64,000 bases of DNA from Paenibacillaceae bacterium (GTDB lineage: Bacteria > Bacillota > Bacilli > Paenibacillales > CANHGK01): assembly GCA_947460235.1 (NCBI GenBank), contig CANHGK010000002.1:62001-126000 (forward strand), given 5' to 3'. A program made the translations under genes and the position numbers. The notes below the pieces were generated by a model. It searched no databases, had not been told where the DNA came from, and saw only the letters and a list, made by a program, of their open reading frames with translations. Positions 4,910 through 55,094 of the stretch are shown here, piece by piece; the stretch's first letter is position 1, and every line of letters begins with the position of its first letter.

Positions 4910-4974
4910 TGTCGTAAAAAAAATAAACAACTCCGCACATTCCGACAAGGTTTCCAATGGTGATTCGATATAAT
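4910..4974 (+). promoter_or_regulatory. spoIIE promoter with Spo0A boxes and 21-base spacer
   Basis: TATAAT at 4969-4974 has no normal -35, but CCGACA at 4942-4947 lies exactly 21 bases upstream. It is embedded in TTCCGACA (4940-4947), a 6/7 match to an inverted Spo0A box; another 6/7 box, TGTCGTA, is at 4910-4916. The B. subtilis spoIIE promoter is likewise sigma-A dependent with a 21-base spacer and overlapping Spo0A sites, so activation by phosphorylated Spo0A is a good inference. Confidence 0.7.
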
Positions 4975-5005
4975 GACGACAATAGAAAGAGGAGTGATTT
5001 GTCGA

Positions 5006-7402
5006 ATGAATTTACATTGGATGAAGTTAATCATTTTATTGTTAATCGCTTTTTTGTTTGGGCGCGTAGATTTATTTGTTGATTTATTGCCGTTTGCTTT
5101 GCCGATGGTGATTGCGTTTCATGATCAGTCTAAGCGGTTAAGCTGGATCATGGGGCTATGTGCATTGGGAGGTGCTTTTACTTTACACTTCGCAATGGCA
5201 GAAAAATTGCTGATCGAACTCGTTTTTTTCGGATTACTATATCTTATATTCGGGAAAATGACGGATAAGGATAGCCGATATGCGCCAGTTTATGTATTTA
5301 TGAGTATATTACTTACGCAAAGTGTATATCTCGTTTTGTTATCGACATTTACAGTACATCTGATCATGATTAACGCGGTAGAATTAACATTAGCGGTTCT
5401 TTTCACCGTACTTGTGATTAATGCGCAGTGGTTGCTTGTTTCATTAAAACGTCCAATACCTCCAAAAATGGAAGAAATGATCAGTTTGCTGATTGTGGTT
5501 TCTTGTGCAATTGGAGGGCTACATGATGTAATGATTGCTGGAGTTTCTGCGGAACACGTCATGCAGCGAGTACTTGTTATTTTAATTGCTTCTGTAGCGG
5601 GTGCTCCCTTCGGAGCCTTAATCGGTGTTATTTGTGGGATGATTGGATCTCTTCCCGAGCCAGATGATTTTAATCAACTTGGTTTACTTGCGGTGGGTGG
5701 ATTTTTTGCGGGATTGATGCAAAAAGGGAAGATCCATGCGATTATCGTGGGATTTTGGATGGGAACCGTTGCGATAAGTGTTTACTATCATCCGAGTCCA
5801 TTGTTTAATTTTATTTTAGAAAATATTGCGGTAACGGCTTTGTTTTTGCTTATTCCAGATCGGTTTCGTGCGGCGGTCGCAGTTTATGCTCCTGGTTCAA
5901 TTGTTAATCAATTGGCACAACATGAATATGCTCGGCGCATTCGTGAGCTTGCGTCGTCTCGGATTCGCCAATTTGCGGCAATGTTTCGGCATTTAGGGAT
6001 CAATTTTCAAGAGTTATCCACCAAAAACGCAGAGCCAAAGCAAAATCGGATGGAACAAACCATTCAAACGGTCATTGCAAGGCATTGTACAGGTTGCACA
6101 AAGCGATCCTTTTGTTGGGAAAATGATTTTTCGGGCACCATTCAATTTTTAGGGAATGTGATTGTTCGTGCCGCAGATTCAAACGGTGCTAGCGAGGAGC
6201 CGATCCCAGATTCGTGGCGGGAACAATGTATTAAAAGTGAAACGGTGTGGAACACAATAGAATTAACCTATAAAAATTTCTCTGACCAATCGTATTGGAA
6301 ACAACAAGTGCAAGAAAGTCGATTGTTTGTGTCACATCAGTTATTCGGTGTTTCGCAAGTAATGGACCATTTAGCCGATGAAATTTGTGAGGAAAAAGAA
6401 ACGATGCTGCGGCACGAAGATCAAATTTTACATGCCATCGCCGAATTGAATCTTGAAATTCGTCGGACTGAATTGGTATGTTTGGAACGAGGTCAAGTGC
6501 AAATAGAATTGGAGCATCGAATCCTTGATCAGGAAGATTTTTGTCGGACAGTACTCGCGCCAATATTTAGTGCGATTTTACAAGAAAACATTGTGCTTTC
6601 CAGTGAAAGCGCAATGGATGGAAGAGGCAGAATGAAACACGCAATCTTTCAGTCAGCTAAACGAATGGTCATTGAAACTGGCATGGCAGGCGCCGCAAAA
6701 AATGGCGGTGTTTTATCAGGTGATAGTTTTAGTACAATGGATTTGGGCGAAGGAAAAATGGCAATTGCGATCAGTGACGGGATGGGAAATGGTCAGCGTG
6801 CGCGTGAAGAAAGCTCTGCGGCATTGACGATTTTACAGCAAATGATGCAAAGTGGAGTAGATGAGCAACTTGCCGTGCGAATGGTCAATTCCATTTTGCT
6901 ACTGCGCTCCTCAGAAGAAATGTATGCGACAGTTGATTTGGCATGCATCGATTTGAATAAAGGATCAGTAACATTTTTGAAAAATGGTTCGATCCCCAGC
7001 TATATTTTACGCGGACAAGAAATTATTTCTGTGTCTTCCAATACTTTGCCAGTTGGAATCGTCGATCAAATCGAAGTTCAACCAATGCGTTTTCAATTGA
7101 TTCCGGGCGACCGCTTGTTATTAATGTCAGATGGTGTTTATGATTCTTCGGATTGGTTGACCGATCAGGAGCGCTGGATGAAACAAACGATTGGTCGATT
7201 GAACATAGATGACCCTCAAGCAATGGCGGATCAGCTCATGGATACGGTTGTACATCAGCGCGGTGGACAAATCCAAGATGATTTAACGATTTTAGTTGCT
7301 AAAGTAGGCAATTATCGTAAAGATTGGGCGGCTGTCAGTTGGGCAGATGCGCCTAGATATCGTAAACCGAGAGTTGTAAGTGGTTCAGCAGTTTACAAAT
7401 AA
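5006..7402 (+). CDS. spoIIE: stage II sporulation protein E, PP2C-type phosphatase
   Basis: 798 residues. The N-terminal third (about 8-315) is a block of membrane helices; the middle (about 320-570) holds a cysteine cluster (CTGCTKRSFCW) and the oligomerisation/FtsZ-interacting region; the C terminus (about 575-785) is a PP2C phosphatase with SDGMGNG near 589 and LLMSDGVYD near 710. SpoIIE dephosphorylates SpoIIAA to switch on sigma-F in the forespore and takes part in polar septation. I start at ATG 5006, which follows AAAGAGGAG (4986-4994); the in-frame ATG at 4973 overlaps the -10 box and cannot be used. It is close to the usual length of about 827. Confidence 0.95.
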   Translation: MNLHWMKLIILLLIAFLFGRVDLFVDLLPFALPMVIAFHDQSKRLSWIMGLCALGGAFTLHFAMAEKLLIELVFFGLLYLIFGKMTDKDSRYAPVYVFMSILLTQSVYLVLLSTFTVHLIMINAVELTLAVLFTVLVINAQWLLVSLKRPIPPKMEEMISLLIVVSCAIGGLHDVMIAGVSAEHVMQRVLVILIASVAGAPFGALIGVICGMIGSLPEPDDFNQLGLLAVGGFFAGLMQKGKIHAIIVGFWMGTVAISVYYHPSPLFNFILENIAVTALFLLIPDRFRAAVAVYAPGSIVNQLAQHEYARRIRELASSRIRQFAAMFRHLGINFQELSTKNAEPKQNRMEQTIQTVIARHCTGCTKRSFCWENDFSGTIQFLGNVIVRAADSNGASEEPIPDSWREQCIKSETVWNTIELTYKNFSDQSYWKQQVQESRLFVSHQLFGVSQVMDHLADEICEEKETMLRHEDQILHAIAELNLEIRRTELVCLERGQVQIELEHRILDQEDFCRTVLAPIFSAILQENIVLSSESAMDGRGRMKHAIFQSAKRMVIETGMAGAAKNGGVLSGDSFSTMDLGEGKMAIAISDGMGNGQRAREESSAALTILQQMMQSGVDEQLAVRMVNSILLLRSSEEMYATVDLACIDLNKGSVTFLKNGSIPSYILRGQEIISVSSNTLPVGIVDQIEVQPMRFQLIPGDRLLLMSDGVYDSSDWLTDQERWMKQTIGRLNIDDPQAMADQLMDTVVHQRGGQIQDDLTILVAKVGNYRKDWAAVSWADAPRYRKPRVVSGSAVYK

Positions 7403-43322: not shown

Positions 43323-44546
43323 ATGCAGGGATTTCAATTCGTTTTGGAGCGTTTGGACGCGAAGATACAACAAGAAATGCAGGAATGGCGTACTCAGTTT
43401 GTTCCACAGCTAGAAATGGATGAATTGATTGAACTGATGAATCATAGATGGACACAAAAACAGCAAGAAATGCCCGTTTTATTTGAGCAAGCGGGAATAA
43501 AGACATCCACGTTTCGGGAATGGTTATATACATGGTTTACTGGAATCGCATTATTGCATGAGTGGGTTGTATTATATGATCTTGCAAAAGAAAAAGTGAA
43601 ATTTGCAGATGTATTTGGTTTGTATTATCGAAGTCAATCAATGATTGAACCGGATGCGATGATTCATCCGAAGCGTTGGGTCAACCGTTTTTTGCACATT
43701 GAAAGACCGGTATGGAAAGAGGCTACGATTGAAGATATCGCATGTGTGAATGAATTATTGCGGAGGGCATGTACAATTTGGAAATCACCAATACCGGAAC
43801 AACAGTGGATCGTATCGTGGTTATTTCTTCAAATCGAACATTTTCCTGAAGGAAAAACGGTAGTTTCTCATTGGGCACCAAAAAGTACTGTGACATGGTT
43901 TGGTGACTTTAACGAAGGAAATGATGGGAAAGTTAAAGAGACTTTCAACAAACTTTCTCCTTTAATTAGATGTAGAAATGTATCGCTTATCATTTTTTTA
44001 TTGCATCAAGAACGTGAAGCAAATCACCAAAGGATATTTGGTTGGTTACAATATGCACTTAAGTTTTTATCATTTATTTCTGCACCTGATGCAGAAAATA
44101 TTTGGATCTATTTTGAGCGATGGGCAATTTACGCCAACACGCAGGATCAGATTGATGCAATGATAAAAGCGTTGTTTGATCATTTACCTTCAACAAAACA
44201 AAGGTTAATTGCAGTAAGCGAGCAGACGAGAAATTATCCGCTGCGTATTGAAGTTGAATTGTTGACGAACGGGGACCCTATGGAATGGTCGTCCGAAGAA
44301 TGGGATCAATGGATAGAGAGCCGTGCTGAATTTTTATTGCCATTCCTACATAATCGTTTAGATCAAATTATGAAATGGAAAGCAAGCGATCGTGAAACGG
44401 CAATGGAATGGACGTGGAATGCACTTCAAACTGTTTACACGAAATTGGATCGTGAATTATTGTGGAAACAATTTATTAGTTGGTATGATGAACAATATGG
44501 AAGAACACGGGTTGGACGAACATTGCGGGAGAAGGAACAAGCATGA
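43323..44546 (+). CDS. uncharacterised protein coupled to SNF2 helicase
   Basis: 407 residues, not recognised. It is soluble-looking, rich in Trp, Glu and Gln, mostly helical by composition, with no signal peptide, membrane helix, zinc cluster, P-loop or HTH that I can see. B. subtilis pairs the SNF2 helicase YwqA with the SWIM zinc-finger protein YwqB; the CxC..CxH SWIM motif is not present here, so this may be a different or strongly diverged partner. ATG 43323 has GGAGG at 43312-43316. The ATGA overlap with the helicase gene strongly suggests joint production. Confidence 0.6.
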   Translation: MQGFQFVLERLDAKIQQEMQEWRTQFVPQLEMDELIELMNHRWTQKQQEMPVLFEQAGIKTSTFREWLYTWFTGIALLHEWVVLYDLAKEKVKFADVFGLYYRSQSMIEPDAMIHPKRWVNRFLHIERPVWKEATIEDIACVNELLRRACTIWKSPIPEQQWIVSWLFLQIEHFPEGKTVVSHWAPKSTVTWFGDFNEGNDGKVKETFNKLSPLIRCRNVSLIIFLLHQEREANHQRIFGWLQYALKFLSFISAPDAENIWIYFERWAIYANTQDQIDAMIKALFDHLPSTKQRLIAVSEQTRNYPLRIEVELLTNGDPMEWSSEEWDQWIESRAEFLLPFLHNRLDQIMKWKASDRETAMEWTWNALQTVYTKLDRELLWKQFISWYDEQYGRTRVGRTLREKEQA

Positions 44547-52973: not shown

Positions 52974-53855
52974 ATGCCTACCATTCGAGAAGCCCTGAAA
53001 GAGGCTTCTTCTTTTTTACTTGCTTCTGGTGTCATTGAAGCGGAGAGCGTGCAACATGCAGAGTGGCTGTTGATGTATGTGCTTGATTGTACGAGAACGC
53101 AATTGTTGATGCGTTGGAACGATCCACTGATCGAGAGTGTATACGATCGATTCAAATATTTTCTTGAGCGCAGGGCGACAGGAGAACCGGTACAATACAT
53201 TATCCAGGAGCAAGAATTTTGCGGTCGTTCATTTTATGTGACATCCGATGTGCTCATTCCAAGGCCGGAAACTGAATTGTTGGTTGAACACGCGTTACGG
53301 GCAATGATGCATTGTGGATTAGCGTCGGATGCTACCATTGGAGATATTGGAACGGGAAGCGGCGCAATTGTAGTGTCACTTGCGATAGAATGTCCAAAAT
53401 CAAAGTTGTATGGCTTGGATTTGTCAGAACCGGCACTTACGATTGCTGCAAAAAATGCGCGTCGGCATGAGGTTGCAGATCGGATTGAATTTTTATGTGG
53501 ATCATATTCAGAACCGTTAATGGAACGAGGTTTATGTCTAGATGTAGTTGTTTCCAATCCACCATATATTCCACGGACGGACGAACCTAGCTTGCAACGT
53601 GAAGTCAGGTGTTTTGAGCCGGAAATGGCCTTATATGGCGGTGGTGATGACGGGATGGATTCATATCGCGAAATCATTCAACAGTTCAGTGCGTGGCAAC
53701 GGAGACCGTATGTCGTCGCATTTGAGGTTGGGATCGGTCAAGCAAACGGAGTAGCTGAGTTAATGCGTGAATTGCAGACGTGGGAACATATCGAGATCAT
53801 TGAAGATTGGCAAAACATCGGTAGAATTGTTTTGGCGTATGCGTATAAAAAATGA
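52974..53855 (+). CDS. prmC: release factor glutamine N5-methyltransferase
   Basis: 293-residue SAM enzyme that methylates the GGQ glutamine of the release factors. The N-terminal helical domain precedes GDIGTGSGAI (SAM) and the NPPYIP motif from N195. VLIPRPETELLVE is conserved. ATG 52974 with GGGGGA at 52960. Four bases after prfA, the usual prfA-prmC pair. Confidence 0.95.
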   Translation: MPTIREALKEASSFLLASGVIEAESVQHAEWLLMYVLDCTRTQLLMRWNDPLIESVYDRFKYFLERRATGEPVQYIIQEQEFCGRSFYVTSDVLIPRPETELLVEHALRAMMHCGLASDATIGDIGTGSGAIVVSLAIECPKSKLYGLDLSEPALTIAAKNARRHEVADRIEFLCGSYSEPLMERGLCLDVVVSNPPYIPRTDEPSLQREVRCFEPEMALYGGGDDGMDSYREIIQQFSAWQRRPYVVAFEVGIGQANGVAELMRELQTWEHIEIIEDWQNIGRIVLAYAYKK

Positions 53856-53909
53856 AATTCTGGTTCATGATGGATTTATCAGATGAAATCATGAAATGGA
53901 GTGTTGAAT

Positions 53910-54065
53910 ATGAAATTTTTGGCGGGAATGTTAGCAATTGCGGTGGCGATTTGTTTGCCTGCAGCAGCGAATCCGGGGAATCTTCAATGGGGTAAACCGA
54001 TGACGAAAAAATGTATACTGTTCCCGCCGATTTGTTTTGAATCAGGAGTAAAAAGGGTGAGATAG
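53910..54065 (+). CDS. small secreted peptide, unrecognised
   Basis: A 51-residue frame with GGAG (53898-53901) 8 bases before ATG 53910. Residues 1-20 look like a signal peptide (MKFLAGMLAIAVAICLPAAA). The predicted mature part of about 31 residues is basic and has two cysteines six residues apart (CILFPPIC). The stop TAG abuts the ATG of tsaC (54066), and its last codons hold the tsaC ribosome site, so the two are coupled. In B. subtilis the secreted sporulation signal SpoIIR is encoded in this neighbourhood; I see no similarity to it. Not recognised. Confidence 0.55.
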   Translation: MKFLAGMLAIAVAICLPAAANPGNLQWGKPMTKKCILFPPICFESGVKRVR

Positions 54066-55094
54066 ATGTCTTGGATGAGTGTTGAGGCGGCGGCGGCGGC
54101 GCTTATTGCGGGTCGAACCGTCGCGTTTCCTACTGAAACGGTATATGGCCTTGGTGGGGATGCGCGAAACGCGGAAGCTGTTCAGGCGATTTTTAATGCA
54201 AAAGGCAGACCTTCGGATAATCCGTTAATCGTGCATGTAGAGAGCATGGAGGCTGCTATTGCAATTGCCATGGAGTTAAATGTAATTGAACTTGAGTTAA
54301 TGCAGCGTTTTTGGCCAGGAGCACTCACGATCGTTTTGCCGGTTCGTCGCGGTGTTTTGGCAGCTGAAGTGACTGCTGGACTGGATACGGTGGGGATTAG
54401 AGTACCTTCGCATCCGGTTGCATTGGAATTGTTGCGCACTTGTAAATTGCCGATTGCAGCGCCGAGTGCCAATCGTTCGGGAAAGCCATCGCCGACGACC
54501 GCGCAACATGTACAAGATGATTTGGGGGCTCGAATAGCAGGTGTGATTGATGGCGGGGCGTGTGATGTCGGGTTAGAATCAACGGTTGTGCGTGTTGTTA
54601 ATGGCAAAATTCATATTTTACGTCCTGGTGGCGTGACGATTGAACAGTTACTTGCTCATGGTTATGAAGCGATTTATGTGCGCGAATTGGAAGACTCGGC
54701 AAGTGTTCCGCGGTCACCTGGTGTGAAATACACACATTATGCACCGCAAGCGGAAATGGAAGTTTGGATTGGTCAACATGGTTTCAACATCGGGTTGGCA
54801 GAGTTATTAAAAAATGAATGCATGGCATTTCAAGGCGATGGACAGCGAATCGCTTGTTTGCTGTTTCAAGATACATTTCAGACGGTCGGAGAATTGAAAA
54901 ACGTGCGCATGTTTTCACTTGGCGATCGTAATCAACCGGAAAACGCTGCACATGATCTGTATGCATTCCTAAGGACCTGCGATCAAGAAGGAATTACACG
55001 AATCATTGCAGAAGGATGTACGGAAGAAGGCGCAGGACTAGCATTTATGAACCGCTTGCTTAAAGCTTCGGGACATCGGATGCGCTTGGTTTAG
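54066..55094 (+). CDS. tsaC: L-threonylcarbamoyladenylate synthase (Sua5/TsaC, YwlC)
   Basis: 342-residue enzyme making threonylcarbamoyl-AMP for t6A37 in tRNA. The YrdC domain (about 1-205) has FPTETVYGLGGDA, KGRPSDNPLIVH and APSANRSGKPSPTTA; a SPGVKYTHYAPQA linker leads into the C-terminal Sua5 domain (about 220-342). ATG directly follows the small peptide's stop, with AAAAGGGTGAG at 54050-54060. Confidence 0.94.
   Translation: MSWMSVEAAAAALIAGRTVAFPTETVYGLGGDARNAEAVQAIFNAKGRPSDNPLIVHVESMEAAIAIAMELNVIELELMQRFWPGALTIVLPVRRGVLAAEVTAGLDTVGIRVPSHPVALELLRTCKLPIAAPSANRSGKPSPTTAQHVQDDLGARIAGVIDGGACDVGLESTVVRVVNGKIHILRPGGVTIEQLLAHGYEAIYVRELEDSASVPRSPGVKYTHYAPQAEMEVWIGQHGFNIGLAELLKNECMAFQGDGQRIACLLFQDTFQTVGELKNVRMFSLGDRNQPENAAHDLYAFLRTCDQEGITRIIAEGCTEEGAGLAFMNRLLKASGHRMRLV

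Follow-up and report, generated by a model that had tools for sequence, protein, structure and literature searches.

The window, by which we mean the whole 64,000-nucleotide stretch of DNA that was analysed, carries a short open reading frame in the gap between prmC and tsaC. We refer to this frame as the mini gene and to its product as the mini peptide, and to the genome that contains the window as the source genome. The features on which the description rests are the following.

4973 to 7402, forward strand: spoIIE, intact (TIGR02865, 586.7 bits; cut-off 490.8)
52974 to 53855, forward strand: prmC, the upstream flank (TIGR03534, 258 bits)
53843 to 53871, forward strand: degenerate sigma-F-like box, GTATA-N15-GTTCATGAT (weak, 6.4 bits)
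53898 to 53901, forward strand: ribosome site GGAG of the mini gene, 8 nt before the ATG (from sequence)
53910 to 54065, forward strand: the candidate mini-SpoIIR frame of 51 codons, between prmC and tsaC (sequence, codon usage, motif)
53910 to 53969, forward strand: signal-peptide-like N terminus, residues 1-20, ending in PAAA (sequence, hydrophobicity, AF2 helix)
54012 to 54038, forward strand: CILFPPICF, the counterpart of CVLFPPLCF in SpoIIR (motif matrix, DNA pattern, position in the SpoIIR model)
54054 to 54061, forward strand: ribosome site of tsaC, AGGGTGAG, within the final codons of the mini gene (from sequence)
54066 to 55094, forward strand: tsaC, the downstream flank (TIGR00057, 188 bits)

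The gap between prmC and tsaC measures 210 bases on a single contig, about 54 of which lie ahead of the mini frame. A sequence-only reading of the same DNA had described a short frame with a good ribosome site, a signal peptide, a basic 31-residue mature part with two cysteines, and a stop that abuts the next ATG, and all of these traits were borne out. The GGAG stands 8 nt ahead of the ATG at 53910, and the TAG at 54063-54065 is followed at the very next base by the ATG of tsaC. Within the full peptide (MKFLAGMLAIAVAICLPAAANPGNLQWGKPMTKKCILFPPICFESGVKRVR), residues 1-20 (MKFLAGMLAIAVAICLPAAA) have, as judged by eye, the shape of a signal peptide with an AxA-type site at its end. The hydrophobicity of this segment peaks at 2.69 (KD scale, 12 residues), and AF2 places a helix over residues 3-19 with low confidence, in a model of the mini peptide that is itself of low confidence (pLDDT 52.5). 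The remaining residues, 21-51, bear a net charge of +5 along with the two cysteines. Codon usage is gene-like, with a log-likelihood of 7.9 compared with 10.9 +/- 5.6 in real genes, and none of 59 shifted open frames of 51 codons equals this score. The 51-codon ORF is a real coding frame, and no family of Pfam or NCBIfam recognizes its product at E <= 1.

The position of the frame is that of a well-known sporulation gene. spoIIR is a forespore gene whose signal starts the sporulation programme of the mother cell, normally by controlling the protease SpoIIGA and a sigma factor; the family is described by PF09551 in Pfam and by what we take to be TIGR02837 in NCBIfam. In the order, 141 of 149 genomes have SpoIIR, and in the class 265 of 398. 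Of 80 tsaC loci fetched from named genomes, 50 have a same-strand SpoIIR frame upstream, and at 47 of them the distance is no more than 1 kb. The SpoIIR frames at these 50 loci span 216-317 codons, compared with 51 in the mini gene, and no second mini spoIIR gene occurs among them.

Searches with whole-length models and sequences returned little. PF09551 has no match at E <= 0.001 in the source genome, which is 99.2% complete, and a full-length home-made SpoIIR model, one of whose 30 training frames (L136) lay on the wrong strand, reaches the mini peptide at E = 0.14. The 51-residue peptide, searched against 392 genomes of the order, gave only two weak matches outside its own genome (E 0.003 and 0.005), which is no more than chance over 391 genomes. 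Nothing similar to the full frame is conserved in these 391 other genomes; the family of the source genome is represented by the source genome alone. Conservation across the order is confined to the motif of the mini peptide, which relatives carry inside full-length SpoIIR. In viral contigs, we found no confirmed match to the mini peptide and no TsaC.

The motif offers the most specific link to SpoIIR. The block near the protein end of SpoIIR reads NWWCVLFPPLCFVD in relatives, and its counterpart in the mini peptide reads KKCILFPPICFES. Of 80 SpoIIR sequences gathered, 79 were used after L136 was left out as a wrong-strand frame; CVLFPPLCF is exact in 73 of these, with the other six deviating from it. 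Against a motif matrix made from the 79 SpoIIRs, the mini peptide not being among them, CILFPPICF scores 30.8 bits, and the runner-up among the 87,034 nine-mers of the window, translated in six frames, reaches 12.2 bits. Written as a degenerate DNA pattern, the motif has one match genome-wide, at the mini locus, and control matches numbered zero; the pattern is strict enough to overlook the SpoIIRs carrying CVLFPQLCF (G002) and CVLFPSLCF (G007). Both substitutions in the mini motif, V to I and L to I, are conservative. An alignment of 39 SpoIIRs shows no variation at the two cysteines and the first proline of the motif, nor at N153, W154 and W155 just ahead of it. The mini peptide lacks this NWW, and the VD flanking the motif is lost as well.

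A predicted model of full-length SpoIIR (L075, 39-row alignment, mean pLDDT 79.9) allows for a comparison of what was kept and what was lost. The model begins with a hydrophobic helix (10-37), continues through an alpha/beta domain (46-159) and a low-confidence stretch (167-201), and ends in a terminal helix (205-220); the motif forms the final domain strand (154-159) together with the loop to the second cysteine. The mini peptide keeps the N-terminal hydrophobic segment and this strand-loop, while the alpha/beta domain that precedes the strand-loop and the tail that follows it are gone. The blocks RLRILANSD, FPTKxYG and YPAGxYEAL, all present in the aligned relatives, are missing from it. A sequence search of the PDB found no solved structure related to SpoIIR, and comparing the fold of the SpoIIR model found none either, the best hit having an E of 0.5.

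In sum of traits, the mini peptide shares with SpoIIR (PF09551) the slot upstream of tsaC, an N-terminal hydrophobic export segment and C-x-L-F-P-x-x-C-F, and its genome keeps the partners SpoIIGA and pro-sigma-E. It differs in having only 51 codons, no globular domain and no C-terminal tail, and in being missed by the family model. SpoIIT, also known as YwmB (PF08680), is likewise a secreted forespore protein in the pathway proposed for the mini peptide, but the mini peptide has no match to any Pfam model at E <= 1. Meeske 2016 (PMC4703394) presents SpoIIT as a second forespore signal to SpoIIGA. PF08680 has no match in the source genome, but several relatives are likewise without a match (two of seven genomes are positive), and the source genome may still encode SpoIIT.

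By gene content, the sporulation programme is kept in the source genome. Besides the intact spoIIE of the window, the genome encodes SpoIVA (368.5 bits) and SpoIIGA (94 bits, an open 305-aa frame at L154:3295-4209, G000:C7), and spoIIGA, sigE and sigG follow one another in a 10-kb stretch. SpoIIGA was searched for in 80 of the 136 SpoIIR-negative genomes from the order and class surveys. Since only two of these 80 genomes pass the SpoIIGA cut-off, namely the source genome and G131 (85% complete), SpoIIGA without a full SpoIIR in one genome is an exceptional combination; partial matches below the threshold were seen in 11 others. This rarity agrees with a table in PMC3533761 that lists spoIIR as a gene common to all bacilli and clostridia that form spores.

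Two further loci of the window and one other genus deserve mention. The protein encoded at 51-1466 matches the SpoVB model over its N-terminal 146 residues only (57.7 bits compared with a cut-off of 372), and the 407-codon frame at 43323-44546, upstream of an SNF2-type helicase, has no Pfam match at E <= 1e-8. All six sampled genomes of genus g18 (G021, G068, G078, G086, G106 and G114) are without SpoIIR, and in G021 SpoIIGA and SpoIVA are missing too; hence, sporulation has probably been lost in this genus.

The retained partners of SpoIIR have themselves changed. In local alignments, SpoIIGA of the source genome is 24-27% identical to its counterparts in four relatives, compared with 27-58% among the relatives themselves; sigE and sigG are 77% and 68% identical to their G022 counterparts. 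The catalytic-type motif of SpoIIGA is retained as DSGN (DTGN in relatives), and the N-terminal YxD found in all four aligned relatives is missing. For B. subtilis SpoIIGA, PMC13174948 names D6A as the sole N-terminal substitution with a noticeable effect. SpoIIGA of the source genome also has a longer stretch ahead of its last membrane segment. The pro-sequence of sigma-E is still of about the usual length and still has the YIGG site, but its hydrophobic patch is lost, with an 11-residue peak of -0.52 compared with 1.19, 2.04 and 2.06 in three relatives (G002 was unmatched by the search string). The divergence of SpoIIGA could fit relaxed constraint equally well as an adjustment to an altered signal.

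Scored with a sigma-F matrix derived from 30 spoIIR promoters in relatives, the sigma-F-like box ahead of the mini gene is equalled or exceeded in 19 of 400 random 210-nt windows (about 5%). The sigG gene of the same genome is preceded by a textbook sigma-F box, GTATA-N15-GGACATACT, at 21.6 bits. At the full-length spoIIR loci, the strict sigma-F consensus is absent in 20 of 50 cases.

Because the mini peptide shares the motif and the syntenic slot of SpoIIR and no other SpoIIR was detected in the genome, we consider it highly probable that the mini frame is what remains of a spoIIR gene after most of it was lost. The sequence-only reading had placed the frame in the slot of spoIIR, and the prmC-tsaC gap is indeed where relatives carry the full-length gene. 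Its suggestion that spoIIR might exist as a separate gene elsewhere did not hold, as the mini gene, with its CxLFPPxCF, is very probably spoIIR-derived itself and no other SpoIIR was detected. Among the functions that it had offered was a secreted signal; a toxin-like peptide found no support.

Our preferred reading, to which we assign a probability of roughly 0.53, is that the mini gene descends from spoIIR and would still serve as a forespore signal. According to this reading, almost the whole globular domain of SpoIIR would have disappeared together with the C-terminal tail, with the export signal and the two-cysteine motif being kept. The peptide would be made in the forespore, and its N terminus would take it into or across the forespore membrane, so that it may be either exported or held in the membrane. 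The CILFPPIC loop, possibly closed by a disulfide, would then touch SpoIIGA, the protease of the mother-cell membrane, and this contact would start the cleavage of pro-sigma-E. Its target would be a co-diverged SpoIIGA, reached either in the space separating the two membranes or from within the mother cell. We infer expression, export, the disulfide and activity on SpoIIGA alike for the mini peptide. A 2026 study argues that SpoIIR acts inside the mother cell, contrary to the older model of a secreted signal (PMC13174948). The same study reports that B. subtilis SpoIIR accepts other membrane anchors in place of its N-terminal segment, and that SpoIIR without this segment is markedly impaired while some sporulation remains. 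As the segment is replaceable and partly dispensable, the active part must reside in the remainder of the protein, and the composition of the mini peptide suggests that it is the cysteine loop. A word search of that study found neither "cystein" nor "motif", and a search of open-access papers found no report of a SpoIIR of mini size or of signalling by a SpoIIR cysteine motif. A bolder version, which we advance tentatively and rate slightly below even odds, is that SpoIIR has been reduced to a peptide of ~30 residues whose CxLFPPxC loop alone activates the co-diverged SpoIIGA, much like a cysteine-loop peptide hormone, with the rest of SpoIIR being a dispensable scaffold.

The main competitor is that the mini gene is a non-working scar of a spoIIR deletion in a genome where the checkpoint is bypassed. 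SpoIIGA would then be independent of SpoIIR, being either constitutive or otherwise cued, and constraint on its membrane part and on the sigma-E pro-sequence would have relaxed. The loss of most of SpoIIR, the weak sigma-F-like box, a SpoIIGA without the conserved YxD and at 24-27% overall identity, and the missing hydrophobic patch of the pro-sequence are all in line with such a history, which we regard as a substantial but lesser chance. A scar would nevertheless hardly be expected to have an intact start, ribosome site, signal peptide, open frame and motif with gene-like codon usage, nor two motif changes that are both conservative although the neighbouring invariant NWW is gone. It is for these reasons, the intact elements and the conservative change of the motif next to lost invariant residues, that we prefer continued function over a scar. 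What counts against function is the weak promoter-like box, the lost NWW, the E of only 0.14 with the full-length SpoIIR model, the low-confidence fold and the representation of the family by a single genome.

The other explanations fare less well. The frame could have been kept solely as a leader for tsaC, with an irrelevant product, as the frame stops directly before the tsaC ATG and contains the tsaC ribosome site in its last codons. However, this leaves unexplained both the signal peptide and a motif that scores 18 bits above any other nine-mer of the window, and coupling would rather be a side effect; we consider this improbable. A collapsed or gapped full-length spoIIR is still less probable. 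The assembly is a draft of 42 contigs, but a single contig carries both prmC and tsaC intact, 210 bases apart, and PF09551 finds nothing in a genome that is 99.2% complete. An unrelated bacteriocin- or toxin-like secreted peptide that came to occupy the spoIIR slot by chance would account for the basic character, the two cysteines, the signal peptide and the lack of a Pfam or NCBIfam match. This explanation is close to refuted by the nine-residue SpoIIR motif, unique in the genome and in the syntenic place, and the flanking genes are prmC and tsaC rather than genes for immunity or export.

Whichever of function or scar applies, the locus is an experiment of nature that bears on which part of SpoIIR carries the signal, and the mechanism by which SpoIIR turns on SpoIIGA is unsolved. 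A pathway kept with only the signal peptide and the nine-residue motif of SpoIIR would point to the signalling part and provide a small construct. If the mini gene is a scar, the genome would equally informatively show a SpoIIGA that no longer needs SpoIIR.

Deviations from the motif also occur in SpoIIRs of other genomes. The SpoIIR of Jeotgalibacillus soli (L042:3094-3720) has CSIFPSFCE in place of CVLFPPLCF. An 85-aa SpoIIR fragment from a 1.4-Mb genome (G027; L150:2205-2459, G027:C77) was rejected as a second mini gene because the contig ends there; it reads NWWCLLMQMMCIV, with the cysteines kept and the FPP core replaced. Members of family f13 in the class form a group with diverged SpoIIRs, recognized with profile E-values of about 1e-7 to 1e-26.
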